DNA of 49,612 nucleotides from positions 1 to 49,612 of IMG/VR virus record IMGVR_UViG_3300007735_000748; one strand, given 5' to 3'. The position numbers and the translations under genes are program-made. The stretch is from a virus. The notes under the pieces were generated by a model that was given only the letters and a program-made list of their open reading frames with translations, had not been told where the DNA came from and did no database searches. This document shows, piece by piece, positions 570 through 49,612 of the stretch (the first letter of the stretch is position 1; each line of letters starts with the position of its first letter).

Positions 570-3500
570 ATGACAACGATGATGCTCGACAATCCGCTCG
601 TGGATTTCTCACGGGCGGACTTCTCGTCCTTTGCGGTGCCCAGCCCTGTCCGTGCCGCCGTCACCGACTCCTACATCGAGGAGAACCGGCGAAGCACGCC
701 GCAGTCGGCCATCAACCAACGCCGCACCGAACGTCTCACCGTGTCGGAACTCAACGACATGGACATGGACGAGATCGTCAAGCGGGCGTACATGGTGCCC
801 ATCGACACCCGTGGCCCCGTCACGCGGTTCCTCGACCTCATCGACCTTCCCCGCAACGCCCTGTTCAACCTGGCTGCCGGTGACACGGCACGCCGCAAGC
901 AGGGCATGGGCGACACCGCCGCCCTCGGCCTGCCCCGCGTCAACACCAGCGACGTGCTTGAGTCGCTTGGCGTGAGGCCAGGACTTGTCACGGGCATCGT
1001 TGGGTTTGTCGGCGACGTGGCTCTTGATCCGCTCACGTACGTCGGGCCTGCGGGCTGGGCAACGCAACTGACCGGCAAGGGAGGCAGGACCGCATCGCTT
1101 GTCGCCAAGGGCGGCAAGGTGCTCAACAAGACCGTTGATGAGATCAAGGCTGGTGCCAATATCAGCGACAATCTCGTCCGCGACTACCTTGAGAAGTCCG
1201 GGTACACGGCTGAGAAACTTGCAACGGCGACCAACAAGGAAGAGTTGGCGAGGGAGATCGGCGAGGTTCTCAGCCGTGGCGAACAAGGCAAAATCAACAA
1301 GCTCTTGTCTTGGATTGGCGGCGATGTCGAGTACAAGCCGGTCCTTGGCCGTGGTGAACTTCCCAAAGACATTGCCGGTCCCGTCATCCAACGCAACTCG
1401 CTTGCGGACGACATCACGGGCTACATCGCTCCCGACGCGGACGACGTGACCAAAGCGCGAATCACGGCGGCCAAGGAGTTCTACAAGGCGTACGGCAGGC
1501 CGTTCTCGCCTGGTGTTCGCGTTGTCAAAGACCCCGCCAGCAAGATTGGATTCTCGTTCACCACGAGCAAGAGTGCCCCCAAGGAATCGGCAATCTTCCA
1601 TGTGCCGTTCACGTCGTACGAACTGTCGGTCCCGGCGTTCACCCCGGCGGCACTCCAGCAGGCCAAGGTCGCCGGTCTTGTCAAGAACGCCATGGCTTCT
1701 GGCGAGTACTTCTCGTCGCCGGAAATGAAGCGGGTGATTGATGCGGATGACATCATCAGCGATGCGTTTCGCACCTATCAAGACATCGTGTCGGGAACGT
1801 CCAAGCCACCCGAGGCTTCGGTTGTTGACGTTGCGGGAACGACAAGGCCAATCGACGAAACGGTCAGTGACGTTGCCCCGGAAGTCGTTGATGAAGTCAC
1901 CCGTGCCGAAGCGTTGAACAACCTCAGGGGCACGATCCGAAGCACGCTTGAGGACGTGAAAAGCACGATCGAGAAGATTCAGGCCGACCCCAACGCCAGC
2001 TACGCCGATCTTCTGTACGCCCAAGACATGGCAAGAAAGTCGGAATCGCAGGCACTCGTCATCGAGAAGCAGGAAAAGAACCTGCGAAGGACGATCAAGC
2101 AAGGCCAGGAATTCTCAACCCAGATTCGGCTTGACGCAAAGAAGAAGGTCACGAACAAACTGGAAGAGTTGCGGGTTGCCGCCAAGGAAGAAAACGTCGT
2201 TCGTCAAGAACGCCTTGAGCGTCTTCGCACCAAAGAGCAGGAACTCATCAAGGCACAGGAACTCGCCGACCAGGAAGCGGCACGCACCAACCCTGCTTCT
2301 CCGTTGCCGCCCGACAATCCGTTGTCGGCTGTCAAGGCAAGATACGAAAAGCAGAAGTTGTCTCTTGCCGTCACGCCTGACAACGCAGACCCCGCCAAGA
2401 ACTCGGAAGTCGCCAACCGCAACGATTGGTACGAGTACCGCACGGCTGCACCTGGGTCGGAGAAACGCCAGCAGGCCGTCGCCAAGATCGCCACCAAGGA
2501 AGTCGTCGAGCAAGATCCAAACATCGTCAACCAGATCGAGCCGCTTCCTGAGATTGTCACCGACGAACAGTTTGAGGCGTGGTCCAACGCCATGAAGTCG
2601 GCGGAAACCCGTCGCGTCGTTGCGATGGACGAAGCCGAGTCGATGGCGATGCTTGCAGAGAAAGACTCGCAAGCGTTCACCTACTTCCAGCAAACCGCCT
2701 ATCACTCGGGGGCGGCTCGCGGCAATCTTGAACAGATTGACTTGAACAAGGTCAATGTCGGCGATCGCTGGCAACTTGGCAACCCGGACTTCATTCACGA
2801 AACGCCGCTTCAGATCGAGGTTGTCGGCATCACCGAAGACGGTCTGATTCAGGTCAAGGTCGAGATGCCGCGTCTTCGCCAGAAGAAAACCAAGTGGTTT
2901 GAACGAACGACCAAGGCCGAACAGGAGCGAATGTTCGCCGAAATGCGGGGCAAGCCAACCGAGTACTACCTGCTCGACCCCAATCAGGCGTTCGCGGTCG
3001 CAACCAAGCGAAAGGGCAACCAGCCAACCGTCGTGCGAATGATCGAGACGGAAGGTGCCCAGGCGTTCACCGGCAACATCTCGGAACTCAGGAACACCCC
3101 GAAGTTCTCGTCCAAGGTTGACAAGGTTCGACTTGCCGAGAATGTTCGCAACAACATCCTTGAGAAGTTCAACGCGGGAAAGATCTCCAAGGAAGTGCGG
3201 GATTCATCGCTTCAGAAAAATGGCGATCGGATTGAGGCGTCCATCACTTCGATGGCAAAGCAGATCCACCGCATGACGCGAGACGACGTTCCCGACATTG
3301 ATGTCAACCAGATCAGGGATGTCATCGTCGATGTCGTCAACAACCACCGCGACATCTCAAAGCTGACCGACGACGACATCATCGGTGCCGTCCGCGTCAA
3401 CCTGTTCGCCGAACCAGTCCCGCCAAAGTTCAGGCAGGAAGCGTTCGGTCGAAAGCTGATGAACAAGGCCGACATTCGCACCGAGGCGATGCGGCAGTTG

Positions 3501-6500
3501 AGGATCGCTCCTGAAGATCTCGGCGGCGTCAAGGTCGGCGACAACACCGAGTTTGCCGGAATGACCGAATCGCAGATTCGTCAAACGGTTGCCCAGCGTG
3601 ACATCGACGAGTCGATGCGTCAGATTCGATTCCAGAAGCATCGTGACGTTGAAAGCGCGTACAACGCGGAAATGGGCGCGATCGAGTCCACGTACGAGGC
3701 AAACGTCAAGCAGCAGCAGGAACTCGCTGCGGAAGTTGACAAGCAGCTCCAACGTCGCCTTGCACGCAAGATCAACGAGATCGAGAACGAGTCTGCAAAG
3801 AAGTTGGCCGATGTCGGCATGGACAGGAACGCCGTCGAAGCCGAGCGTGCCGCACGCCAGCAGCGTCTCGACCAGGCGGAAGGCGAAGCCGTCAAGGAGA
3901 TCCTGCGCGACCTCGGAGCAAGCGAAGACGCGCTCGATCCCATTCAGGTCGGCAAGGGTACCGAGTACGAGGGCATGTCGATCGACGACATTCGCAACGA
4001 GGTGTTCAAGAAGCACTCGCTTGAGCACGACAAGAAGTTCGGCATGACCGATCTTCCCAAGTACTACACGGAACAGGAAATCGAAGAGCTGACGGCTCGG
4101 GCCGACTATCTCAACGCCAAGGCCACTGCTGCCGCCGAAGTATCCAACGCCAGCGGAAAGCCGCTTCTTGCGGCAGCAGGAAGCGATGTCGAAGAGGCGT
4201 TCACCAACGCCCGTGTCGCCATGGGACTTGGTGCGGACGACATGGGTTCCGGCGTTATGGCTTCTCTTTCGACCATGACCGAGAAGTTCGCCAGCCGTGG
4301 CAAGGCCGGTGCCGCCATCCACCACGCCGCACGCAATCTTGAACGCACGTTCGTCAACCGGCTCGGTCTGGCACCCGGCATGGCAAACGATGTCATCAAG
4401 CGGTACATCAGGGCACAAGACATCTCGCAAACGGCAGCGTTTCGCCTGTCGATGCAGGACATGATTCAGGCCATCGCCAATTCGGACATCAGGCCCGACC
4501 AGCACAACGAGGCCGCCCAACTCGCCCTTGCTCTCATGTTCGTCGGGGACAAGACCATCGACGAGATGACGAAGATGGCCGGAAGGGACAGGGCGTACAA
4601 GATCGTCATCGACGCCATGAAGGGCGGACTGCTCGACCCAACCGTCAATCCCAACGGCAGCAAGACCATCCGAGAGCTCTCGGCCAAGTACAAGCAGATC
4701 CTCGACAACCTTGATGTCCAAAGCGGCATCTCCGACTACGTTCCCAATGTCCTGACTCCACAGGCACAGAACTTCATCAACTTCCAGCGAGCCAACCAGG
4801 CCAACCTGATCTCGTCCAAGAAGGCCGTTGCCAAAAACGAAGTGGAGTCGGCGGCTGCAAAGTTCATCGAGAGCTTTCAGAAGCCGCGATCCACGATCGA
4901 GCACGCATGGTCCGATTCGGTCGGCAACCAATACACGCTGATGGAATCGGAGATGGCGTACAAGGATTACGGCGGGGAATACATCCAACAGCTCAAGATG
5001 TCAAAGAACGAGGACGAGCGCAGGCTTGGCGAGTACATCGAAAGAGTGCAGAACAAAATCAACGCTTGGGAAAGTCTGACTGAGGTGCAACGCCAAGGAG
5101 CGGACACCTACTACCTGTCGCCGCACGAGATCAACCGTCGCGTCAAGGAAGACGGCATGTTCGGCACCTTGACCAACAAGGCGTTGAACGGCAAGGATTT
5201 CATGTACGCCGATATCGTCAACGCCGTCTCGATGCGTCTTGGCGGCGAAGAGCGAATGCAGGCACAGAAACTCCTTCAGCAGTACGTCGCCCCCTACGAA
5301 CTTCGCGTCAACAGCGTCAATCTTCAGGGTTCCGGCTTGGCCGGTGGCGGCAAAAAGACGTTCACGACAACGAACGGAACGCAAGTCGAACTTGTCAACG
5401 ACAAGGGCGAGTACGTCATCTACATCGGCAACACGCGATACCGTCAGCCCAAGATCAGCGTTTCGGATGAGTTCTCGATTGCCAATGCTCTTTATCGCAC
5501 CAGCGACGGAACGCTGATGAACAACGCCTTCTACCCCGAAAAGATCGCTGACATCATCGAGGATGCGGCAGGATTCTTCGGCAAGCCAAAGGAAGGCAGC
5601 GGATTCGCCAAGGCGTTCGGAATCAACTCCAGTGCCGAAGACAACATCACCGGCATTGTCAAGGCGGCGGAAAAGATCTCGGGATACTGGAAGATCTTTA
5701 CGCTTCTGCACCCGTCATGGACAATCAACGACATCGTTGGCAACCTGTTCCTCATCGCCAACATGGGAATCAATCCCATGCGAATCGTTCGCAAGGCAAA
5801 GGACACCTTCCAATTCACGCAAGCGGTCGCCAGAGGCGATGTCGAAGCCCTCAAGGAAATGACCATTGAAGGCAAGACTGGCCTTGAGCACCTGGCCTCC
5901 CAGCTTGGTTCGATCATCGACACAGCCGGTCACGCGGAAACGTCACGCCAACTTCGCAACACCGGCGAATACGTGGACCCGTACGCCTACTCGATGATTC
6001 GGGCAATGAAGAAACTCGCCAAGGGCGACGTTCAAGGTGCTCGTGCCGAGATGGCCGGGGCGTATCAGGAAACCGTCGCAGCGGCAAGGCAGAGCGTTGC
6101 GGAAACCAAGGCCGTGTCGCCCGAAATGACCGGCGAAAAAGCCAGGGTCGTCATCGACGCGGCGTTCGACAAGACGCTTGTGCGACGAGTGTGGCAGGGC
6201 TGGGCGCACGTCAACGGATTGGCGAACAACTGGCTCAAGGTGTCGGCGTACTTCTGCCTTCTGGAAGACGGCTACGACGCGGCCTCGGCGGCACGCATGA
6301 TCGGCGAGAAGATGCTCGACATGACCGCCGTGACGAGCACCGACCGCAACCTTCGCCGCATGATGCCATTCTACAACTGGATGAAGCACAGCGGCGTGCT
6401 TGGCGTGAGGGAGTTCTTCCGCAACCCCAAGTTCTTTGCCGTCGCCCCCAAGGTCAAGCAGGCGTTGGAGGAGTCGTTCAACGGAGAGGAAAACCTGCCC

Positions 6501-7160
6501 GAAAACGCACGCCCGTCGTGGATTCGTGACCAGCTTGCCTTCCAGATCGGCACGGACCCGGACACGAGGCGTGCCCTGACGCTTACGTCGTCCCTGCCCA
6601 CCGAAGCAGCCACCTACGCGATTTCGTTCCTGGCTTCGCCTTTCCTTGGCTGGGGAGCGTTCCAAGACTCGCTTGCCTACGTCACCAACGCTCTCAACCC
6701 CGTGCCCAAGTCGATCTTGGAGCTCGGAGCACGCAAGGAATTCTTCACCAAGCGAACGATCAGCAGCGAAGGCGGCGACATCACGCCGACCGAATACTTG
6801 CTCAGTCAGGTCCGCCCGTTCCGCGAGCTCGGCATCGGATCGTTGCGTGGTGGTCCGCTCATCCGTGCGTTTGAGGACGATCCTGTTCTCGGCCTCAGCC
6901 GCCTTGCGATTGGCGGACGCTTGCAGCCGTTCGAGGAAGAACGTCGTGTGCAGAACTTGCAGCGGGAATACGACGAGCGCGTGGATGCGTTGCGACGACG
7001 CATTGGCATCGCCGAACGCGAGAGCCAGAAGGACGAGTCGCTTCGCAAGCGAATCGAACTGCTGCGGCTCTTCAATCAGATGGAAGGACTGGGCCTGACC
7101 GTGCCCAAGTGGGCGAGCAGGCAGATCGAGCAGGTGAACCAGGCACAGGCCGCACCCTGA
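570..7160 (+). CDS. Giant (2,196-aa) virion-associated protein, large polyvalent / internal core type
   Basis: The start at 570 has an AAGGA site just upstream. Long charged coiled-coil stretches lie around residues 450-600 and 1050-1190. A hydrophobic motif (HPSWTINDIVGNLFL, about residue 1713) and a second one (PFYNWMKHSGVLGVREFF, about residue 1933) match, from memory, the very large structural proteins of many environmental phages whose C-terminal part carries an NPSYH-like and a PFYTW-like box. An internal repeat with a shared core (VG..TE, then GM and IR) occurs near residues 984 and 1125. The gene is the last late gene before the convergent leftward operon. Family knowledge points to ejection with the DNA or to an inner core role, but no catalytic motif was seen, so the function stays inferred. 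Confidence 0.8.
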   Translation: MTTMMLDNPLVDFSRADFSSFAVPSPVRAAVTDSYIEENRRSTPQSAINQRRTERLTVSELNDMDMDEIVKRAYMVPIDTRGPVTRFLDLIDLPRNALFNLAAGDTARRKQGMGDTAALGLPRVNTSDVLESLGVRPGLVTGIVGFVGDVALDPLTYVGPAGWATQLTGKGGRTASLVAKGGKVLNKTVDEIKAGANISDNLVRDYLEKSGYTAEKLATATNKEELAREIGEVLSRGEQGKINKLLSWIGGDVEYKPVLGRGELPKDIAGPVIQRNSLADDITGYIAPDADDVTKARITAAKEFYKAYGRPFSPGVRVVKDPASKIGFSFTTSKSAPKESAIFHVPFTSYELSVPAFTPAALQQAKVAGLVKNAMASGEYFSSPEMKRVIDADDIISDAFRTYQDIVSGTSKPPEASVVDVAGTTRPIDETVSDVAPEVVDEVTRAEALNNLRGTIRSTLEDVKSTIEKIQADPNASYADLLYAQDMARKSESQALVIEKQEKNLRRTIKQGQEFSTQIRLDAKKKVTNKLEELRVAAKEENVVRQERLERLRTKEQELIKAQELADQEAARTNPASPLPPDNPLSAVKARYEKQKLSLAVTPDNADPAKNSEVANRNDWYEYRTAAPGSEKRQQAVAKIATKEVVEQDPNIVNQIEPLPEIVTDEQFEAWSNAMKSAETRRVVAMDEAESMAMLAEKDSQAFTYFQQTAYHSGAARGNLEQIDLNKVNVGDRWQLGNPDFIHETPLQIEVVGITEDGLIQVKVEMPRLRQKKTKWFERTTKAEQERMFAEMRGKPTEYYLLDPNQAFAVATKRKGNQPTVVRMIETEGAQAFTGNISELRNTPKFSSKVDKVRLAENVRNNILEKFNAGKISKEVRDSSLQKNGDRIEASITSMAKQIHRMTRDDVPDIDVNQIRDVIVDVVNNHRDISKLTDDDIIGAVRVNLFAEPVPPKFRQEAFGRKLMNKADIRTEAMRQLRIAPEDLGGVKVGDNTEFAGMTESQIRQTVAQRDIDESMRQIRFQKHRDVESAYNAEMGAIESTYEANVKQQQELAAEVDKQLQRRLARKINEIENESAKKLADVGMDRNAVEAERAARQQRLDQAEGEAVKEILRDLGASEDALDPIQVGKGTEYEGMSIDDIRNEVFKKHSLEHDKKFGMTDLPKYYTEQEIEELTARADYLNAKATAAAEVSNASGKPLLAAAGSDVEEAFTNARVAMGLGADDMGSGVMASLSTMTEKFASRGKAGAAIHHAARNLERTFVNRLGLAPGMANDVIKRYIRAQDISQTAAFRLSMQDMIQAIANSDIRPDQHNEAAQLALALMFVGDKTIDEMTKMAGRDRAYKIVIDAMKGGLLDPTVNPNGSKTIRELSAKYKQILDNLDVQSGISDYVPNVLTPQAQNFINFQRANQANLISSKKAVAKNEVESAAAKFIESFQKPRSTIEHAWSDSVGNQYTLMESEMAYKDYGGEYIQQLKMSKNEDERRLGEYIERVQNKINAWESLTEVQRQGADTYYLSPHEINRRVKEDGMFGTLTNKALNGKDFMYADIVNAVSMRLGGEERMQAQKLLQQYVAPYELRVNSVNLQGSGLAGGGKKTFTTTNGTQVELVNDKGEYVIYIGNTRYRQPKISVSDEFSIANALYRTSDGTLMNNAFYPEKIADIIEDAAGFFGKPKEGSGFAKAFGINSSAEDNITGIVKAAEKISGYWKIFTLLHPSWTINDIVGNLFLIANMGINPMRIVRKAKDTFQFTQAVARGDVEALKEMTIEGKTGLEHLASQLGSIIDTAGHAETSRQLRNTGEYVDPYAYSMIRAMKKLAKGDVQGARAEMAGAYQETVAAARQSVAETKAVSPEMTGEKARVVIDAAFDKTLVRRVWQGWAHVNGLANNWLKVSAYFCLLEDGYDAASAARMIGEKMLDMTAVTSTDRNLRRMMPFYNWMKHSGVLGVREFFRNPKFFAVAPKVKQALEESFNGEENLPENARPSWIRDQLAFQIGTDPDTRRALTLTSSLPTEAATYAISFLASPFLGWGAFQDSLAYVTNALNPVPKSILELGARKEFFTKRTISSEGGDITPTEYLLSQVRPFRELGIGSLRGGPLIRAFEDDPVLGLSRLAIGGRLQPFEEERRVQNLQREYDERVDALRRRIGIAERESQKDESLRKRIELLRLFNQMEGLGLTVPKWASRQIEQVNQAQAAP

Positions 7161-7296: not shown

Positions 7297-7533
7297 TTAC
7301 TTGCACCCCCAACGCTTGCGTGCGGCCTTGCCACGCTCGCCAGCCCATTGCTGACTGCGGGCACAGAATGACTTGTGACGCGGGTTCTCGGGATCCTTGG
7401 TCGGCGGCTTGAGGTTCGATCCAGTCTCGCGGTTGTGCTTGTCCCGGCCCTTCTGGGTCAGGCCAGCACCCTGCGACACCGGCAACTTCTCGCCGCGACC
7501 AACGCTCAGGTTCACCTGCTTCTTCTTCGCCAT
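7297..7533 (-). CDS. DUF6321-like small basic phage protein (78 aa)
   Basis: The start at 7533 has an AAGGAG site (minus strand) seven bases upstream. The central GLTQKGRDKHNRETGSNLKP and the downstream KSFCARS block match, from memory, the phage family with a GLSAKGRAKYNRATGSNLKPP signature followed by RRKSFCARM (DUF6321). The protein is rich in Lys/Arg, with Cys in the FCAR motif and near the C-terminus. No function is established. It is translated in series with the genes on either side. Confidence 0.75.
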   Translation of the reverse strand: MAKKKQVNLSVGRGEKLPVSQGAGLTQKGRDKHNRETGSNLKPPTKDPENPRHKSFCARSQQWAGERGKAARKRWGCK

Positions 7534-12967: not shown

Positions 12968-13042
12968 CCGCGCCCCTTGAATGGGTCGCGGCCGATTCAC
13001 CCTTGGAACGTCCAAGGGTCCGCCCCCTATGGAAAGGATCCG
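12968..13042 (+). promoter_or_regulatory. Double-hairpin leader module 1
   Basis: Hairpin A: CCGCG (12968-12972) with CGCGG (12987-12991), plus CCC/GGG inside. Hairpin B: a perfect 9-base stem (12999-13007 with 13011-13019) and loop acg. Then ATGGAAAGG (13029-13037) as SD before the ATG at 13043. Same order as at seven other small genes. Confidence 0.7.
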
Positions 13043-13566: not shown

Positions 13567-13631
13567 GGATTCTGGCAGGATTCACCCCTTGGAACGTCCA
13601 AGGGTTCGCCCCCTACGGAAAGGAATTAGCG
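13567..13631 (+). promoter_or_regulatory. Double-hairpin leader module 2
   Basis: Hairpin A here is weak (a CCTaCC/GGcAGG pairing near 13561-13579). Hairpin B is strong: an 8-base stem (13586-13593 with 13597-13604) and loop acg, the same sequence as B of module 1. The SD ACGGAAAGGA follows, then the ATG at 13632. Confidence 0.65.
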
Positions 13632-13871: not shown

Positions 13872-14165
13872 CTTCCCCACCCCCACCCACCCCCATCGGC
13901 CGAACCCTAGCGGGTTCGCCCGATATTATCATCCCCCGAACGAACGCCCACCTAACCCGTAGTTAGGTAGACGTTCGCCCGCCCGCGTCGGCCCCCCGTA
14001 CGTAGGTGCAAGGGGGGCGCATCGTCGATGCAAGGGGGGACGATTCAATACCCCCGCGTCCGCATTCTACAATTTTGTGTGTTTGTCTACTGGACTTGAC
14101 AATAGGGGGGCGTACACTCTCTCAATAGCTCACCCCGGAACGGTGGGCGGAAAGGACGGATACCT
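13872..14165 (+). promoter_or_regulatory. Second control region, hairpins and operator-like words
   Basis: No gene is seen in these 294 bases. There is a two-part hairpin (CGAACG and ACCTAAC arms pairing with GTTAGGT and CGTTCG, about 13941-13977) and a GCCCCCC/GGGGGGC hairpin (13991-13997 with 14012-14018). GCATCG-T-CGATGC lies at 14019-14031. The shared words TACAATTTTG (14068) and TTGTCTACT (14083) follow, with a TTGACA at 14096. A partial hairpin with loop CCGGAAC (14131-14145) and SD GGAAAGGA precede the ArdC-like gene. Confidence 0.6.
14068..14091 (+). promoter_or_regulatory. Paired operator words TACAATTTTG and TTGTCTACT
   Basis: TACAATTTTG (14068-14077) equals one half of the palindrome at 11258-11275 in reverse orientation, and TTGTCTACT (14083-14091) equals a half of the palindrome at 12347-12362. 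Their joint presence at three loci suggests a common regulator. Confidence 0.5.
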
Positions 14166-14573
14166 ATGAAGCGTAAACGGTACACCCCAGAAGAGCGGCG
14201 AGCGTTCGCCCTGGAAGCTCTTGGGCGTGCTACGTCGCGGTTGGCGTCGAATAACGACGGCGTAGTTATCGCCGCGTTCGCCGAACGCGGCATCGACGCC
14301 ACCCCCCGCGTAGACGTATTCACCTACGCCGCGTGGCAAGCTCTTGGGCGGCAAGTCCGCCGGGGCGAGAAGAGCGTAACGGTAACCACGTGGATCCCCC
14401 TTGCCGCGAAGGAAGGGGATCCGAAGCGTACCGGCGGCATGATCCCGCGACGCGCCTACGTCTTCCACGTGTCCCAAACGGACCCGATCCCGGGGGCCGT
14501 GGACCGATCGGGCGGAATGGCCGAACGCCGTGCCGAGCTGGAAGCGTTCGCCGCCGAGCTGGGCACCCCGTGA
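14166..14573 (+). CDS. Stand-alone ArdC N-terminal-like ssDNA-binding protein (135 aa)
   Basis: The stretch FTYAAWQALGRQVRRGEKSVTVTTWIPL (residues 52-79 or so) followed by RRAYVFHVSQTDP matches the ArdC-type N-terminal domain, in which a TYLQWKALG.QVRKGEK segment precedes a strand ending in a VFDVSQT-like box. ArdC is an antirestriction protein that binds ssDNA; its metalloprotease part is absent here, so only the binding domain is present. The start at 14166 lies behind GGAAAGGACGGATACCT. Likely early role: protecting entering DNA or binding replication intermediates. Confidence 0.7.
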   Translation: MKRKRYTPEERRAFALEALGRATSRLASNNDGVVIAAFAERGIDATPRVDVFTYAAWQALGRQVRRGEKSVTVTTWIPLAAKEGDPKRTGGMIPRRAYVFHVSQTDPIPGAVDRSGGMAERRAELEAFAAELGTP

Positions 14574-14579
14574 CTACAC

Positions 14580-14682
14580 CCCCCGCCGCCCACCAGCGAC
14601 GCGGGGGTATTCTCTCTCTTTCTTTCTCTCTCTCTCTCTCTCAATAGCCCACCCTGGAGGGTGGGCGGAAAGGATGGAACCG
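14580..14682 (+). promoter_or_regulatory. Double-hairpin leader module 3, with pyrimidine tract
   Basis: Hairpin A: CCCCCGC (14580-14586) with GCGGGGG (14601-14607), then TATT. An unbroken 33-base pyrimidine tract follows (14610-14642). Hairpin B: CCCACCC (14648-14654) with GGGTGGG (14659-14665), loop TGGA. SD GGAAAGGA, then the ATG at 14683. The 13 bases CTCTCTCAATAGC before B are shared with the ArdC-like gene's leader (14117-14129). Confidence 0.7.
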
Positions 14683-14958: not shown

Positions 14959-15041
14959 CGTCGCGGCACGGGGGAACCCGGCCGCGACGATTCACCCCCT
15001 GCAACGTGCGGGGGTTCGCACCCTATGGAAAGGGGCTAATC
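14959..15041 (+). promoter_or_regulatory. Double-hairpin leader module 4
   Basis: Hairpin A: CGTCGCGG (14959-14966) with CCGCGACG (14982-14989), a perfect 8-base stem. Hairpin B: ACCCCC and GCA (14994-15003, one bulged T) with TGC and GGGGGT (15007-15015), loop acg. SD ATGGAAAGGGG, then a GTG start at 15042. Confidence 0.7.
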
Positions 15042-16180: not shown

Positions 16181-16254
16181 CGCCCCCGCCCCTTGAATGG
16201 GACGGGGGGCGTTTATCGGTGGCATGGGGCCGCCGTGCTATGGAGAAGCATCGA
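16181..16254 (+). promoter_or_regulatory. Double-hairpin leader module 7
   Basis: Hairpin A: CGCCCCCG (16181-16188) with CGGGGGGCG (16203-16211), inner CCC/GGG around ttgaat, then TTTA: terminator-like. Hairpin B: CGGTGGC (16217-16223) with GCCGCCG (16229-16235), one U-G pair, loop atggg. SD ATGGAGAAG, then the ATG at 16255. Confidence 0.7.
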
Positions 16255-16567: not shown

Positions 16568-17401
16568 ATGCTGTTATCTCGATTCATCGCCGAGTACAAG
16601 CGGCCCGAGCTTCGCCGGTCCACGGTCGCCGGGCACCTGGTGTCCCTTGGGATGCTCGCCGCCACCATGCCCCCCACGGCCACGGTCGCCGCCGTCAAGC
16701 GTGCGAACGTGCTCCGCATGATTGAGGGGGGCGCGGCCAAGGGACTGACGCGGGCGACGCTGGCGAAGCACGGAAGGTACATCGGGGCCGCCATGGAATA
16801 CGCGGTGCGGTTGGGGATCATCGCGGAGAACCCCGCCCGCAACCTGGGCGTGAAGCACAACGCCCGCCCGAAGGACTGGGAGTACGTCACCGCCGCCAGC
16901 GTCGAGGCCGTGCTCGCCGGGGTCGAGTGCGAGCATCTAAGGGGGGCGATCGCCGTTGCAAGGTGGGCGGGTTGCCGCGTCAACGAAGTGCTCCGTCTCC
17001 AGTGGGACGATGTTGACTTGCAAGGGGGGACGATCGTGATTCACCCCACGCCCGACGATTGGGGCCGGTGCGAGGAGGGCACAAAGGGACGCCGCCGCGT
17101 CGTTCCCCTCGATCCTCGCGTGCGAATGTACCTTCCGACAAGGGGGGACGACAAGTACGTCTGCGGGTCGTTACGGTACCGTCAATACGGTCGCCTGCTC
17201 AAGAGGGTGGCGACGTGGGACGGGGCACCCTGGCACACGCTGCGGAAGAGCTGCGGCATGGACTGGGCGGATCTCGTGCCGATCAGCACCGTCGCGGACT
17301 GGATGGGGCACACGGTCGCGGTCGCATCGCAGTACTACCTTCGCCCGCACGCAAAGCACTTCGCCGCAATCACGTCCCAAAATCCTGTCAACATGGGTTG
17401 A
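16568..17401 (+). CDS. int: Tyrosine recombinase / phage integrase (277 aa)
   Basis: Catalytic residues are readable in order: R137 (GCRVNEVLRLQWDDVD), K173 (GTKGRRRVVPL), H223 and R226 (PWHTLRKSCG), H248 (WMGHTV) and Y257 as nucleophile, nine residues after H248 as in XerD. The N-terminal 100 residues form the usual helical core-binding domain; an arm-binding domain is missing, which makes this a short integrase. The start at 16568 sits three bases from the hairpin G-run. Expected reaction: site-specific integration and excision. No attP core could be identified without a host sequence; the next 100 bases are the likeliest place. Confidence 0.9.
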   Translation: MLLSRFIAEYKRPELRRSTVAGHLVSLGMLAATMPPTATVAAVKRANVLRMIEGGAAKGLTRATLAKHGRYIGAAMEYAVRLGIIAENPARNLGVKHNARPKDWEYVTAASVEAVLAGVECEHLRGAIAVARWAGCRVNEVLRLQWDDVDLQGGTIVIHPTPDDWGRCEEGTKGRRRVVPLDPRVRMYLPTRGDDKYVCGSLRYRQYGRLLKRVATWDGAPWHTLRKSCGMDWADLVPISTVADWMGHTVAVASQYYLRPHAKHFAAITSQNPVNMG

Positions 17402-17426
17402 CACGAGAGGGGCGTTCAGGTACACT
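17398..17426 (+). promoter_or_regulatory. Strong sigma70-type promoter for the replication module
   Basis: TTGACA (17398-17403, perfect -35), 17-base spacer, TACACT (17421-17426). The -35 overlaps the integrase stop codon. Transcription would start at about 17433 and drive the DUF5856-like, csrA-like and recombination genes. Confidence 0.7.
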
Positions 17427-17499: not shown

Positions 17500-17859
17500 A
17501 TGACAAAGTTCCTCTCAATCCTGAACCAGATCCGCGTCTTTCACTGGCAGACCAAGAGCTTCGCCGAGCACGAGGCGTTGGGCAAGTTGTATGAATCGCT
17601 CGACGGCCTGGTCGATGAGTTCGTCGAGGTCTTCAGTGGTCGCTACGGCGAGGTGCCGAAGGCCAACGAGGTCTTCGACGCGAAGGCCAGGAACTACGTG
17701 AGCAACGCCGACACGAAGGCGTATCTCGACGAGATCGCCGACTACCTTGGCGGCGAGGTCAACGATTTCCTTGAGGAGGAGGACACGGAGCTTGCCAACA
17801 TCCGCGACGAGATGCTGGCCGCCGTGAACCGCACGAAGTACCTGCTCGGCCTGTCCTGA
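17500..17859 (+). CDS. DUF5856-like phage protein (119 aa)
   Basis: The opening NQIRVFHWQTKSFAEHEALG, then LYESLDGLVDEFVEVFSGRYG, matches from memory the short phage family DUF5856, found in T4-like and marine phages and predicted to be a ferritin-like helical bundle. The HW..KS.A.H pattern recalls Dps proteins, but a full ferroxidase site is not evident. Function unknown. First gene behind the 17398 promoter and followed by a terminator-type hairpin. Confidence 0.7.
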   Translation: MTKFLSILNQIRVFHWQTKSFAEHEALGKLYESLDGLVDEFVEVFSGRYGEVPKANEVFDAKARNYVSNADTKAYLDEIADYLGGEVNDFLEEEDTELANIRDEMLAAVNRTKYLLGLS

Positions 17860-17870
17860 TTCAACCCCCA

Positions 17871-17966
17871 CCCCCGGCACGGTGCGTAGCCGTGATCGGG
17901 GGTTTACGCAACGGATTGCCCGCACGCATCGCGTCGATGCTCGCGTGCATGACATGGAGAAGTCCA
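17871..17966 (+). promoter_or_regulatory. Double-hairpin leader module 8, of the csrA-like gene
   Basis: Hairpin A: CCCCCG and CACGG (17871-17882) with CCGTG and CGGGGG (17890-17902), then TTTA. Hairpin B: GCATCG (17926-17931) with CGATGC (17935-17940), 3-base loop, framed by GCAC and GTGC. SD ATGGAGAAG (17954-17962) and ATG at 17967: the same SD word as module 7. Confidence 0.7.
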
Positions 17967-18161
17967 ATGCTGTTTCTCGCCATCAAGGCGGGCGAACACG
18001 TCACCATCACCGACAACAAAGAGACGATCGAGGTTCACAACATGGATGCCCATGGCATCCGCATCGCCATCAAGGCACCTCGAAGCTGGGCGATCGTTCG
18101 CTCGGACGCCAAGAACAAGAACAGAAGGGAGGAAGACAATGGAACTGCCGCAGTTTCCTGA
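17967..18161 (+). CDS. csrA: CsrA/RsmA-family RNA-binding translational regulator (64 aa)
   Basis: MLFLAIKAGEHVTI followed by IEVHNMDAHGIRIAIKAPRSWAIV-R aligns along its length with CsrA: the ML.L....GE..xI start, the G..VRIGI.AP core and an Arg at R45 equivalent to E. coli R44; L4 is kept too. CsrA dimers bind GGA in RNA hairpin loops, often at the SD, and block or stabilise the message. The start at 17967 follows ATGGAGAAG; longer frames begin within the hairpin. The last 23 bases overlap the nuclease gene. The tail after residue 50 is longer and more charged than in E. coli. Phage-borne copies could act on host or phage leaders. Confidence 0.85.
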   Translation: MLFLAIKAGEHVTITDNKETIEVHNMDAHGIRIAIKAPRSWAIVRSDAKNKNRREEDNGTAAVS

Positions 18162-19146
18162 CGCACACCGGCTGACGAACAGCCAGATCGCCACGTTCCG
18201 CACCTGCCAACGCAAGGAGTACTACTCGTATCGCGTCGGCGTGCGGCCTGAGCAGCAGGGTCGCGCCTTGCGGTTCGGTTCGATGATGCACTACGGCATC
18301 GAGATGGTCGCCAAGGGGCACACGCCGAGCGAGGCGTGCCGAGCCGTCAGCGACTACTACGAAGGCATCCAGTGGTCCGGGGTCGGCAACCCCCGCGACA
18401 TCGAGATCGAGCACATGCAGGTGGTCGCCCTGCTCAACGGCTACTTCGACACCTGGATCAACAAGGGGCCGGATCACCTTCGCGTGGTCGAGAACATCGA
18501 GGTCGAGCGTCAGTTTGAGCTCAAGATCCCGTATCAGAAGCGGGTCTTTGCGGGCAAGATCGACGGCATCGTGAAGCTGGCGAACGGGCAGGTCGCGGTC
18601 AGGGAAACCAAGACCGCGAGCGACGACATCGCCGCCGACAGCGACTACGTTCGCCGCCTCCGCATCGACAACCAGATCAGCGGCTACGTCATCGCCGCGA
18701 AGTCGATGGGGTTCAGCATCGACACGGTGCTCTACGACATCATCAAGAAGCCGGGCATCAAGCCGTATTCGGCGACGCCCGAGGAGTCGCGGAAGTACAC
18801 GAAGGAAGGGAAGCTCTACGCGAACCAACGCGAAGAGGACGAGTCGGCGGCGGACTACTACGACCGCCTCTACACCGACATTCAGCTCAACCCCGACAAG
18901 TACTTCGCAAGGTACAATATCCCCCGCCTCGACTCCGACTTGCAGGAGTGGAGGGACGGAATCATCGACAGCATGAAGGAGATGCAGCAGGCGTACGAAC
19001 ACGACCGCAAGGCCCGCAACACGGCGGCCTGCCTTGCCTACGGTCGATGCGCCTACCTCGACGTGTGCCACAGCGGAATCAGCGCAGGCGACAGCGTTCC
19101 GCCAGGATTCAAGCAGGTCGCCAAGATCCATGAGGAGCTCGAATGA
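18139..19146 (+). CDS. Cas4/RecB-type PD-(D/E)XK nuclease with Fe-S cysteines (335 aa)
   Basis: The start at 18139 has a GGGAGGAAG site and overlaps the csrA-like gene by 23 bases. SQIATFRTCQRKEYYSYRVG supplies C23, H51 lies in GSMMHYG, and D142 (GKIDGIV) with E156 and K158 (AVRETKTA) form the nuclease core. C298, C304 and C310 near the C-terminus complete a likely 4Fe-4S cluster with C23, as in Cas4 and AddB. Such phage nucleases resect DNA ends for recombination. The next gene is a Sak4-like recombinase, overlapping as ATGA, so they probably work together. Confidence 0.85.
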   Translation: MELPQFPDAHRLTNSQIATFRTCQRKEYYSYRVGVRPEQQGRALRFGSMMHYGIEMVAKGHTPSEACRAVSDYYEGIQWSGVGNPRDIEIEHMQVVALLNGYFDTWINKGPDHLRVVENIEVERQFELKIPYQKRVFAGKIDGIVKLANGQVAVRETKTASDDIAADSDYVRRLRIDNQISGYVIAAKSMGFSIDTVLYDIIKKPGIKPYSATPEESRKYTKEGKLYANQREEDESAADYYDRLYTDIQLNPDKYFARYNIPRLDSDLQEWRDGIIDSMKEMQQAYEHDRKARNTAACLAYGRCAYLDVCHSGISAGDSVPPGFKQVAKIHEELE

Positions 19147-19988
19147 CACCCCCCAAGCCACCCGCCCCGCCGTTCCAGCCGACCGGCAACATCAAGCCGG
19201 TCAAGATGCTGGACCTCACGCCCCGCAAGCCCAGCACGCCCTGCCCCCGAATCGTGTACTACGCGGTCGAGGGGTTCGGCAAGACGACGTTCGGCATGGG
19301 GGCACCGAACCCCGTGGTCCTCGCCGCCCGTGACGAGAAGGGCACGCAGCGGCTCCTCGACGCGGGCCTGGTCGATCCCGCCCCGGTCATCGACATCGGG
19401 TCGTGGCCCGAGTTCCTCGACACGCTCGATGCGTTGGCGATTCAGGGTCACGACCGCAAGACGATCGTGATCGACTCGCTCTCGGCCTACGAGCGTCTGT
19501 GCCACGAGGAAGTCATCAAGCGTGACTTCCGTGGCGATCCGGGCGACGGCGGTTTCCTCGGGTTCGGTCGCGGACCCAAGGTCGCCCTGACCGAGTGGAC
19601 CCGCATGCTTCAGAAGCTCGACGTGCTCAACGCGAAGGGCATGATGATCGTGCTGCTCGGTCACTCCTACATCGAGAAGTTCAAGAACCCGACCGGCACG
19701 GACTTCGATCGGTTCTCGTGCAAGATCGACCCGCTCGCTTGGTCGATGGTGAAGGCGTGGGCCGATTGCGTGTGGTTCGGCAACTTCTTGACCGTCACGC
19801 AGCAGGTCAACAAGTTGGCGAAAGCCAAGGGCATCGGCGGCACTGATCGCGTGGTGTACACTCAACGTCGTGACAGTCACGACGCGAAGCCGGGGTACGA
19901 CATGCCTCCGGAGATCGTTCTCGGCGACGACCCACGCAAGGTCTACGGCGAGATCATGCAGCATGTCTTCAAGGAAAGGAACCAGTGA
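19143..19988 (+). CDS. Sak4-like RecA-fold ATPase (281 aa)
   Basis: Walker A at residues 44-48 (EGFGKTTF) and Walker B at 107-111 (TIVIDSL) with a downstream VLLGHSYIE strand match the phage nucleotide-binding proteins of the Sak4/AAA_24 group, single-strand annealing or strand-exchange proteins usually paired with an SSB, as here. A Pro-rich N-terminal tail of 20 residues precedes the domain. ATGA overlap with the nuclease and TGATG overlap with the next gene show translational coupling. Confidence 0.85.
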   Translation: MTPPKPPAPPFQPTGNIKPVKMLDLTPRKPSTPCPRIVYYAVEGFGKTTFGMGAPNPVVLAARDEKGTQRLLDAGLVDPAPVIDIGSWPEFLDTLDALAIQGHDRKTIVIDSLSAYERLCHEEVIKRDFRGDPGDGGFLGFGRGPKVALTEWTRMLQKLDVLNAKGMMIVLLGHSYIEKFKNPTGTDFDRFSCKIDPLAWSMVKAWADCVWFGNFLTVTQQVNKLAKAKGIGGTDRVVYTQRRDSHDAKPGYDMPPEIVLGDDPRKVYGEIMQHVFKERNQ

Positions 19989-39631: not shown

Positions 39632-39828
39632 CCGAGGCAATCATGGACCTGTTTCGTCAGTACGCTGAACGCAAGAAGCAGGAGCTCATGGAGAAGGCGG
39701 CGGAAAAGTTGGGCGGCAAGATCGAGGACGGAAAGGTCGTCCTCCCCGGCAATGCGATGGACAGGGAATACGGTGGTAGACCGTATATTTCCCAAACGCT
39801 AGGCAACGTGGGAATCAAGCCCCGATGA
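39628..39828 (+). CDS. Small helical protein (66 aa)
   Basis: GTG start at 39628 overlaps the adaptor stop as GTGA with GGAGG six bases upstream. Opening TEAIMDLFRQYAERKKQEL is a strong amphipathic helix, followed by a short strand region. Unknown role, perhaps assembly chaperone. Confidence 0.6.
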   Translation: MTEAIMDLFRQYAERKKQELMEKAAEKLGGKIEDGKVVLPGNAMDREYGGRPYISQTLGNVGIKPR

Positions 39829-47681: not shown

Positions 47682-49612
47682 ATGGCCTACGACCCTCAGA
47701 ACCCGCTCGACGCGATCACTGGCGAACGTGCCAAGCGTGGCAAGAAGAACCAGTCCACGTTTGAGGATCGCAACAAGATCACGGTCACGGGGCCTGACGG
47801 AAAGCCAATGAAGGTGCAGGGAAGCCGTGGCCCCGGCGGCCTGATGGCAGTATCGCCTGAAGACCTTGCCAACGCGGCAATCCAGCGTCGAGCGGCTACC
47901 GGCCAAGTTGAACGTCCGCAAAGCGGCATGGGTGACGTTCGCATGGCCGAACGCAATCCCGACCCTGTGCAGCCGCGAGGATTGTTTGGCCGACTTGCTA
48001 ACGTCCCACCCCAACCAGCTCGCGGCGGAATCCCTGCTTCTTCGCCACCGGCAGCTGAAACCGCTTCGCAAACCATCCGGCCCAAGGGAGTGTTTGGTCG
48101 CATGGTTGGCGGTGAAGTGCGTGAAGCAACTCAGCCTCGGGTTGGCATGGGCGACGTGCGGATGCGTGAACGTGAAGTTGAGCAGCCGGTTGCGACACAG
48201 CCAGCCGCCAAGCAACCTGTTCCTCAAGTTGGTCCGCCGCCTGCACGTCCTCGCATGGACATTTCCGACGCCATGTTCGGCGACACCGGACTTCAAACGA
48301 TCGGTCAAGCCATGCGTCAGGCACCGCCACCCGAGCGAGGGTTGACGCGAGAGATGAACGAACAGATCTTGCGTGATGTGTTGGCTGGTGAAGCACAACG
48401 TCTTCGCGGAATCAAGCGTGAAGATGATGCGTTGTCTCGCGCCTTCCCCGACGTTTCGTTCCGTCCCAAACAGCAATCTGTCGATCAGCCTGCTCAACAG
48501 CCGCAAGGGTTTGTTGGCCCCGACCGCCAGTCCAATATCGCCCGAGCCGACCAGCTCCGTGCCCAGATCGCATCCGAGCAGCAAGCCATGCTTGCGGCTC
48601 GCCGTGCCCGTGGCGGCTCGTTCCGCGAGGACACCGCCCCGCTTGAACGCATCGCCGGTATGCGTCAGGAGCTCGCCCAGTACGAGCGTGCGGCAACGCC
48701 TAGTCAACCGATTCGCGTCAAGACTCCCGAGGAGAACTTGGCGACCGAGCAGAGCCTTGCACGCCAGGCGTCCGACATCATGTCGAAGGACGTTGCGGAT
48801 CTTCGTGCTCAGGTCGCCTCGATGCCCGCCGGTCCCGAGCGTGACGCACAGGCTGAACGTCTGCGTTCGCTTGAGTTCCAACAGCAGCAGCAGGGTGCCC
48901 GTGCTGGTGCTTTGCCCGCCGGTGCAGTCGGTCCTCAGCCGATGGGTGCATCGGTTGGCCTGTCTGAGCAGATGCTCGGCGAAGCCCGTGCCCGCACCGA
49001 ACGTCAGCGTGAAGCTGCTCCCCGTGTCGCCGCCCGCCAGCAGGAACTTGCCGACGTTGCCATGCGTGAAGGCGAACGGCTCACGGGCAAGCGACAGGAC
49101 GCTGAACAGCAGAGAGCTGATCTTGCCCGTGCAACGCGAGAGGCGACACTTGCCGGGTTGTCCGCACCTGAACGAATGCGTCAGGAAGCGATCGCTACGG
49201 AGCAGGCCAAACGCGCGGCACTCACCACCAAGACCGGCATCGAAACCGAAGAGTCCAAGGCTCGTGTTGCCAAGATCATGTCTGAAATTGGCGTTGAAGA
49301 ATCAAAGGCACGCATGGTCGAAAACCAACTGCGTGAGTTCTACGACGACAAGCAAATACGCCGTCGTGCCCAAGAACTTGACTTTGAATCCAAGTCGCTT
49401 GACAACGAACTCAAGCGTGCTCAGGTTGAAATGCAGAAGAAGGGCATGGCCTTCAACCCTGAAATGGCCGCAATGCAAGACGCTGCCGTTGCCAAGTCCA
49501 TGGAGAGGCTTGGCATCAGTGCTGCGGATGAAGATGTTGTTCGGCAGGCCGCTGAAGGGCTCAAGCAGAACATTGACAAGACGACGTACACGGTTCCGTC
49601 CGATGCGATGCA
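47682..49612 (+). CDS. 5' part of 787-aa internal virion / tape-measure-like protein (runs into position 1)
   Basis: ATG at 47682 follows GGAGTTGACCA. The frame is open to the end of the window and continues, across the 127-bp overlap, to the stop at 560. N-terminal 220 residues carry two imperfect repeats: GMGDVRM at 82-88 and 155-161, and a G(L/V)FGR box at 100-104 and 136-140. After that comes Gln/Ala/Arg-rich coiled coil, then the Gly/Ala hydrophobic region near residue 704. 787 aa of helix could measure a tail of about 115-120 nm, or serve as an ejected core protein. Confidence 0.75.
   Translation, partial: MAYDPQNPLDAITGERAKRGKKNQSTFEDRNKITVTGPDGKPMKVQGSRGPGGLMAVSPEDLANAAIQRRAATGQVERPQSGMGDVRMAERNPDPVQPRGLFGRLANVPPQPARGGIPASSPPAAETASQTIRPKGVFGRMVGGEVREATQPRVGMGDVRMREREVEQPVATQPAAKQPVPQVGPPPARPRMDISDAMFGDTGLQTIGQAMRQAPPPERGLTREMNEQILRDVLAGEAQRLRGIKREDDALSRAFPDVSFRPKQQSVDQPAQQPQGFVGPDRQSNIARADQLRAQIASEQQAMLAARRARGGSFREDTAPLERIAGMRQELAQYERAATPSQPIRVKTPEENLATEQSLARQASDIMSKDVADLRAQVASMPAGPERDAQAERLRSLEFQQQQQGARAGALPAGAVGPQPMGASVGLSEQMLGEARARTERQREAAPRVAARQQELADVAMREGERLTGKRQDAEQQRADLARATREATLAGLSAPERMRQEAIATEQAKRAALTTKTGIETEESKARVAKIMSEIGVEESKARMVENQLREFYDDKQIRRRAQELDFESKSLDNELKRAQVEMQKKGMAFNPEMAAMQDAAVAKSMERLGISAADEDVVRQAAEGLKQNIDKTTYTVPSDAM
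49486..49612. repeat. Terminal direct repeat, right copy
   Basis: Exact copy of positions 1-127. Joining the two copies restores one uninterrupted reading frame (47682 to the end, then on to 560), which supports circular closure over chance similarity. Confidence 0.9.

Follow-up and report, generated by a model that had tools for sequence, protein, structure and literature searches.

Does a CsrA-like protein that is carried by a phage act on the messages of that phage, on those of its host, or on both? The question is raised by an open reading frame at positions 17967-18161 (+ strand) of the window, the whole 49,612-nucleotide stretch of viral DNA that was analysed, which specifies a protein of 64 amino acids, MLFLAIKAGEHVTITDNKETIEVHNMDAHGIRIAIKAPRSWAIVRSDAKNKNRREEDNGTAAVS. 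The window is probably a complete genome of approximately 49.5 kb, circularly permuted or circular, because it has a direct terminal repeat of 127 nt (1-127 is the same as 49486-49612). We give even odds (a probability of about 0.5) to the reading in which the product is a divergent translational regulator of the CsrA/RsmA type that represses its own synthesis, dampens that of an overlapping exonuclease and has host mRNAs as most of its targets. Its family, the predicted fold of its subunit, the synteny of its gene with that of a sister phage, the overlap with the start of the exonuclease gene and a consensus-like site at its own Shine-Dalgarno (SD) sequence in both phages are directly supported.

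By sequence and by structure prediction, the csrA product is a genuine phage-encoded member of the CsrA family. It scores 38.5 bits against the Pfam CsrA model PF02599, for which the cut-off is 27, and the genome gave no other match to CsrA. With 30.2 bits for the equivalog model TIGR00202, far below the cut-off of 70.1, it is a divergent member of the family, not to be named a CsrA orthologue. Residues M1, L2, L4, G9, E10, I14, R32, P38 and R45 align in register with CsrA, R45 being the equivalent of CsrA R44 shifted by a one-residue insertion. L4 and R44 are critical to RNA binding by CsrA (PMC7652899) and the window protein keeps both. A profile made from the csrA product and two relatives matches RsmE/CsrA structure chains over residues 1-46. 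The AlphaFold2 monomer predicted from an alignment of eight phage-contig CsrA proteins shows the central strands as well as a helix at the C terminus, with a moderate mean pLDDT of 67; a structure search with this model returned only Csr/Rsm proteins among the top 15 matches, the first 14 with a probability of 1.00, and the best of them (2mfc, 2jpp and 5z38) gave TM values of 0.60-0.65. An earlier AlphaFold2 model from three sequences gave no match to CsrA structures. The predictions were of monomers only, and in the eight-sequence model strands 1 and 5 lack pairing partners, in line with what a swapped dimer would give. The Pfam score, the residue alignment and the subunit fold bear out the proposal, made in an earlier sequence-only reading of this DNA, that the phage encodes a CsrA with L4 and R45, and the fold comparison that it called for gives a match to RsmE/CsrA subunits at the level of the monomer.

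The setting of the gene is shared with a single sister phage in IMG/VR, IMGVR_UViG_3300032233_001718, whose portal protein is 85% identical to that of the window phage; the phage collection contained no relative of this portal, and when the terminase and the ATPase were used to look for the host among 84,980 genomes, nothing matched. In both phages csrA is preceded by the gene for a DUF5856 protein (17500..17859, + strand; Pfam PF19174; 67% identical in the sister) and followed by those for a PD-(D/E)XK exonuclease (18139..19146, + strand; Pfam PDDEXK_1, PHROG 1218) and a Sak4-like AAA_24 recombination ATPase (19143..19988, + strand; Pfam AAA_24, PHROG 124; 78% identical). The start codon of the exonuclease gene lies 23 nt inside csrA in the window phage, and the corresponding overlap of reading frames in the sister is 4 nt. 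An integrase gene is found upstream of csrA in the window phage. A sigma-70-type sequence, TTGACA-17-TACACT (17398..17426, + strand; 10/12 in a consensus scan), is a candidate promoter for the DUF5856-csrA-exonuclease unit, although such a score is by itself no evidence of function. The sister homologue of CsrA is also 64 amino acids long and has the family-invariant residues M1, L2, G9, E10, I14, R32, P38, I43 and R45; it has V4 in place of L4, keeps an arginine at the position equivalent to R44 and scores 24.2 bits against PF02599, just under the cut-off of 27. Identity between the two CsrA proteins is only about 34-40%, compared with 66-78% for the neighbouring proteins. Elsewhere in these genomes, the open reading frame at 570-7160 of the window (approximately 2,196 amino acids) had no convincing PHROG match and Rfam gave no match in the window. 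Positions 7345-7473 of the sister resembled tRNA-Sec at 30.4 bits, below the gathering threshold of 47; this element was set aside, ARAGORN having found no tRNA there.

Two predicted hairpins followed by ATGGAGAAG do lie upstream of csrA, as the sequence-only reading had described. Hairpin A (17870..17903, + strand; sequence and fold) is directly 3' of the DUF5856 stop codon and is terminator-like, with a GC stem and then TTTA. Because it follows a stop codon and its 3' end is GGGGGTTTA, it seems to close the transcript that comes from upstream rather than to form part of the csrA leader. Hairpin B (17917..17949, + strand; RNA fold) has the loop CGU, which is without GGA. ATGGAGAAG, at 17954, is downstream of both hairpins and has a second copy within a coding region at 39688.

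It is at the SD sequence itself that a candidate CsrA site is found. RsmE and CsrA recognise ANGGAX in a small loop that is closed by a C-G and then an A-U pair (PMC4005645, PMC7652899), and we derived the search pattern W-C-ANGGAX(0-2)-G-W from this literature. The csrA SD fits it at 17952..17963 (+ strand) with ACATGGAGAAGT, of the form AC-ANGGAG-AA-GU (in RNA, ACAUGGAGAAGU). The consensus is matched by AC-AUGGAGAA-GU in the window phage and by AC-AGGGAG-GU in the sister, where the same place reads AAAC-AGGGAG-GUUU. With csrA included, the window has the pattern at 3 of approximately 66 gene starts and the sister at 1 of 37, and the product of these frequencies gives a chance of about 0.001 for its presence at csrA in both, a figure that is optimistic because the motif partly coincides with any SD and because the phages are related. 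The sequence pattern for a small ANGGA loop closed by C-G and A-U is present over the SD of csrA in both phages, but in the window a competing stem is stronger: the GGA-loop form has -0.6 kcal/mol and the UGGA-GAAG-UCCA stem -2.8, and in the ensemble of the window leader the SD GGA is looped with a probability of 0.01. Autoregulation of csrA, coupled to the exonuclease, is plausible because csrA has in both sister phages an SD that agrees with the consensus for CsrA/RsmE, and this shared site suggests that the protein may have at least one target in the phage. Because the motif is absent from the SD of 11 further csrA genes in the phage collection, almost all of them of the proteobacterial type, this form of autoregulation, if real, would be a trait of the present lineage and not of phage csrA genes generally.

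Is csrA then one member of a larger set of phage messages under common control? The sequence-only reading had placed it behind the same type of leader as its possible targets, and at the level of sequence this does not hold. Between 12951 and 16254 a family of intergenic leaders precedes at least six small early genes; its members have a hairpin after the stop codon, a second hairpin and a purine-rich SD. The leaders of genes 13043, 13632, 15042, 15726, 15950 and 16255 are related to one another, and those of genes 14166 and 14683 form a second related pair. The csrA leader has no significant similarity to the leader of gene 16255, the earlier 'module 7' (p = 0.39), or to the early leaders beyond C-rich sequence, and is missing from the repeat families of the genome; it shares with them only the layout (GC hairpin after the upstream stop, second hairpin, SD) and the 9-mer ATGGAGAAG. 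The pattern of the early leaders did not occur in the viral contigs searched.

The GGA loops to which the same reading had pointed, at 14135-14141 and 14655-14658, do exist, and both hairpins are predicted with a probability near 1. Its emphasis on GGA in the SD carries no information, because 66 GGAs are present in the SD zones of approximately 66 called genes and the feature is ordinary. GGA is found in the loops of 4.8% of strong hairpins in the genome, so that one or more among ten leaders has p of about 0.39, and both cases belong to a single leader that is present in two copies. In the leaders of genes 13043, 13632 and 15042 a compensatory change from GGAACGUCC to GCAACGUGC keeps the pairing and loses the GGA, a comparison which argues that the upstream hairpin may be conserved for a reason other than GGA. 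A search for CsrB-like clusters of GGA hairpins found none above 3 sites in 150 nt.

The best candidate for a two-site target is the leader of gene 14166 (14128..14165, + strand; sequence and fold), with a hairpin that has CCGGAAC in its loop and an SD in the form AGG-ACGGAUA-CCU; the loop GGA (14137-14139) and the SD GGA (14158-14160) are 21 nt apart. The paralogous leader of gene 14683 (14647..14681, + strand; sequence and fold) has a UGGA-loop hairpin and the SD GG-AUGGAA-CC, with GGA at 14656-14658 and 14676-14678, 20 nt apart. This geometry is like that of flaA in Campylobacter (PMC4894983). Gene 14166 (14166-14573) resembles the N-terminal domain of the antirestriction protein ArdC (PF08401, 25.7 bits; cut-off 22.6). 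Mini-hairpins at the SD, all on the + strand, are weak candidate sites before gene 13043 (CCU-AUGGAA-AGG, 13026..13037) and gene 13632 (CCU-ACGGAA-AGG, 13612..13623; 0.88 of the ensemble) and candidate sites before gene 15042 (CCCU-AUGGAA-AGGG, 15021..15034; 0.99 of the ensemble) and gene 16255 (GUGCU-AUGGAGA-AGCAU, 16235..16251; 0.02 in the whole-leader ensemble). Closure of ANGGA by three or more pairs is seen at 6 of 13 early starts and 3 of 52 others (Fisher p = 0.001), a test that was devised post hoc and in which related leaders are not independent; when these are counted once, p is approximately 0.02. The folding ensembles, in contrast, contain no excess of looped GGA in the early leaders, either at the SD (p = 0.22) or upstream of it (p = 0.48), and the two tests of the regulon idea disagree.

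What remains of the proposal that the phage runs a regulon of its own is this post hoc excess and the loop GGA of one leader pair. Were CsrA to bind SD GGAs in small hairpins throughout 12.9-16.3 kb, the early hypothetical genes there would be switched together, in keeping with the closed ANGGA motifs at their starts and with the flaA-like spacing before genes 14166 and 14683. The choice of the motif after the event, its reduced significance by leader family, the failure of the ensembles to show an excess, the pairing that outlives GGA before genes 13043, 13632 and 15042 and the unrelated leader of csrA all tell against this, and we judge such a phage leader regulon to be a weak possibility and distinctly unlikely. 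The same low likelihood attaches to an internal switch in which CsrA would repress itself, the overlapping exonuclease and early genes such as the ArdC-like one by way of two-site leaders; if true, one small protein would time the expression of early phage genes. The early hairpin leaders may instead be unconnected with CsrA and serve as general expression elements, such as 5' stabilisers or enhancers of processing or of translation initiation, and to this we assign a chance a little short of even. Their restriction to early genes and the conservation of pairing but not of the loop are in agreement with it, as is the precedent of the cluster K mycobacteriophages, in which repeated SD sequences with an upstream inverted repeat (SAS/ESAS), of unknown function, precede many early or non-structural genes (PMC3203893) in a layout like that of the window. 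The SAS/ESAS consensus, GGGATAGGAGCCC, had no matches in the window at two or fewer mismatches, so the likeness is one of analogy and not of homology, and general elements of this kind would leave the site at csrA itself unaddressed.

That site also bears on the rather doubtful alternative that the protein acts on the host alone, mimicking or competing with host CsrA at host mRNAs, at CsrB-like small RNAs and possibly at the mRNAs of CRISPR-Cas or other defences, with no phage leader among its targets. Plasmid pQBR103 encodes RsmQ, which altered hundreds of proteins of the host and, among 733 of the plasmid, only 16 (PMC9928087); RsmA of Serratia represses CRISPR-Cas and the presence of csrA in phages correlates with that of csrA in their hosts (PMC8450108); looped GGA, moreover, is not enriched in the early leaders. 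The consensus at the SD of csrA in both sister phages nevertheless suggests at least one phage target, and the window protein diverges from CsrA of the host type, with an identity of 23-40%. The reading that we prefer combines the two: the csrA product would serve an integrase-carrying phage at its early stage, that of recombination, would form the usual swapped dimer and would bind ANGGA RNA through L4 and R45. It would repress its own translation and, by translational overlap, dampen that of the exonuclease. Beyond autoregulation it would act mostly on host mRNAs, as RsmQ does, and some early phage leaders, above all the pair before genes 14166 and 14683, may be further targets. With a CsrA that changes fast and a consensus site that is kept at its start, the sister pair offers a concrete and testable case of autoregulation tied to a recombination gene.

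Compared with bacterial CsrA/RsmA proteins (RsmE of Pseudomonas fluorescens, 2jpp, and CsrA of E. coli), the window protein has the same Pfam family, length, subunit fold, L4 and R44-equivalent, but its identity to the E. coli protein is only 23%, and other residues stand in place of R6 and H43, which belong to the classic RNA-binding strands. RsmQ is likewise a CsrA of a mobile element and binds AnGGA in hairpin loops; its action mainly on host proteins was shown experimentally (PMC9928087). Among phages, csrA was described in 30 by Sobrero and Valverde in 2020 (PMC7366521) and in many records of GenBank and IMG/VR by Campa in 2021 (PMC8450108); one phage CsrA is possibly present in virions (PMC9144972), and knockdown of csrA (gp28) in PTXU04 results in smaller plaques (PMC11879866). 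The GenBank phage collection held 85 records with csrA, not all of them surely phage, at least one being a large Salmonella contig. Two records named 'Bacteriophage sp.', MT837916.1 and MT837633.1, were considered as phage relatives with triple GGA hairpins and were excluded as apparently bacterial, MT837916 because the open reading frame after csrA begins much as a flagellin does. Three ANGGA sites are present in the csrA leader of MT837916: two lie within hairpins of 6 bp (AAACGG-AUGGAGUA-CCGUUU and GUAUUU-AUGGAA-AAAUAC) and the third covers the SD (AC-AUGGAG-GU). The csrA leader of MT837633 retains the SD site. Phage csrA genes are repeatedly found beside or overlapping an exonuclease or PD-(D/E)XK nuclease gene, for example at 2001-2213 of VvAW1. 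Those of Pseudomonas phage F116, Vibrio phage VvAW1, Burkholderia phages JC1 and DC1 and PTXU04 belong, like that of the window, to early or recombination regions, often with an exonuclease gene close by. F116, VvAW1 and the other phage csrA genes that we examined are without AC-ANGGAG-GU at their own SD and encode proteins close to proteobacterial CsrA, whereas the window protein is much more divergent. Phage-borne csrA was already known, and the window gene adds a divergent member.
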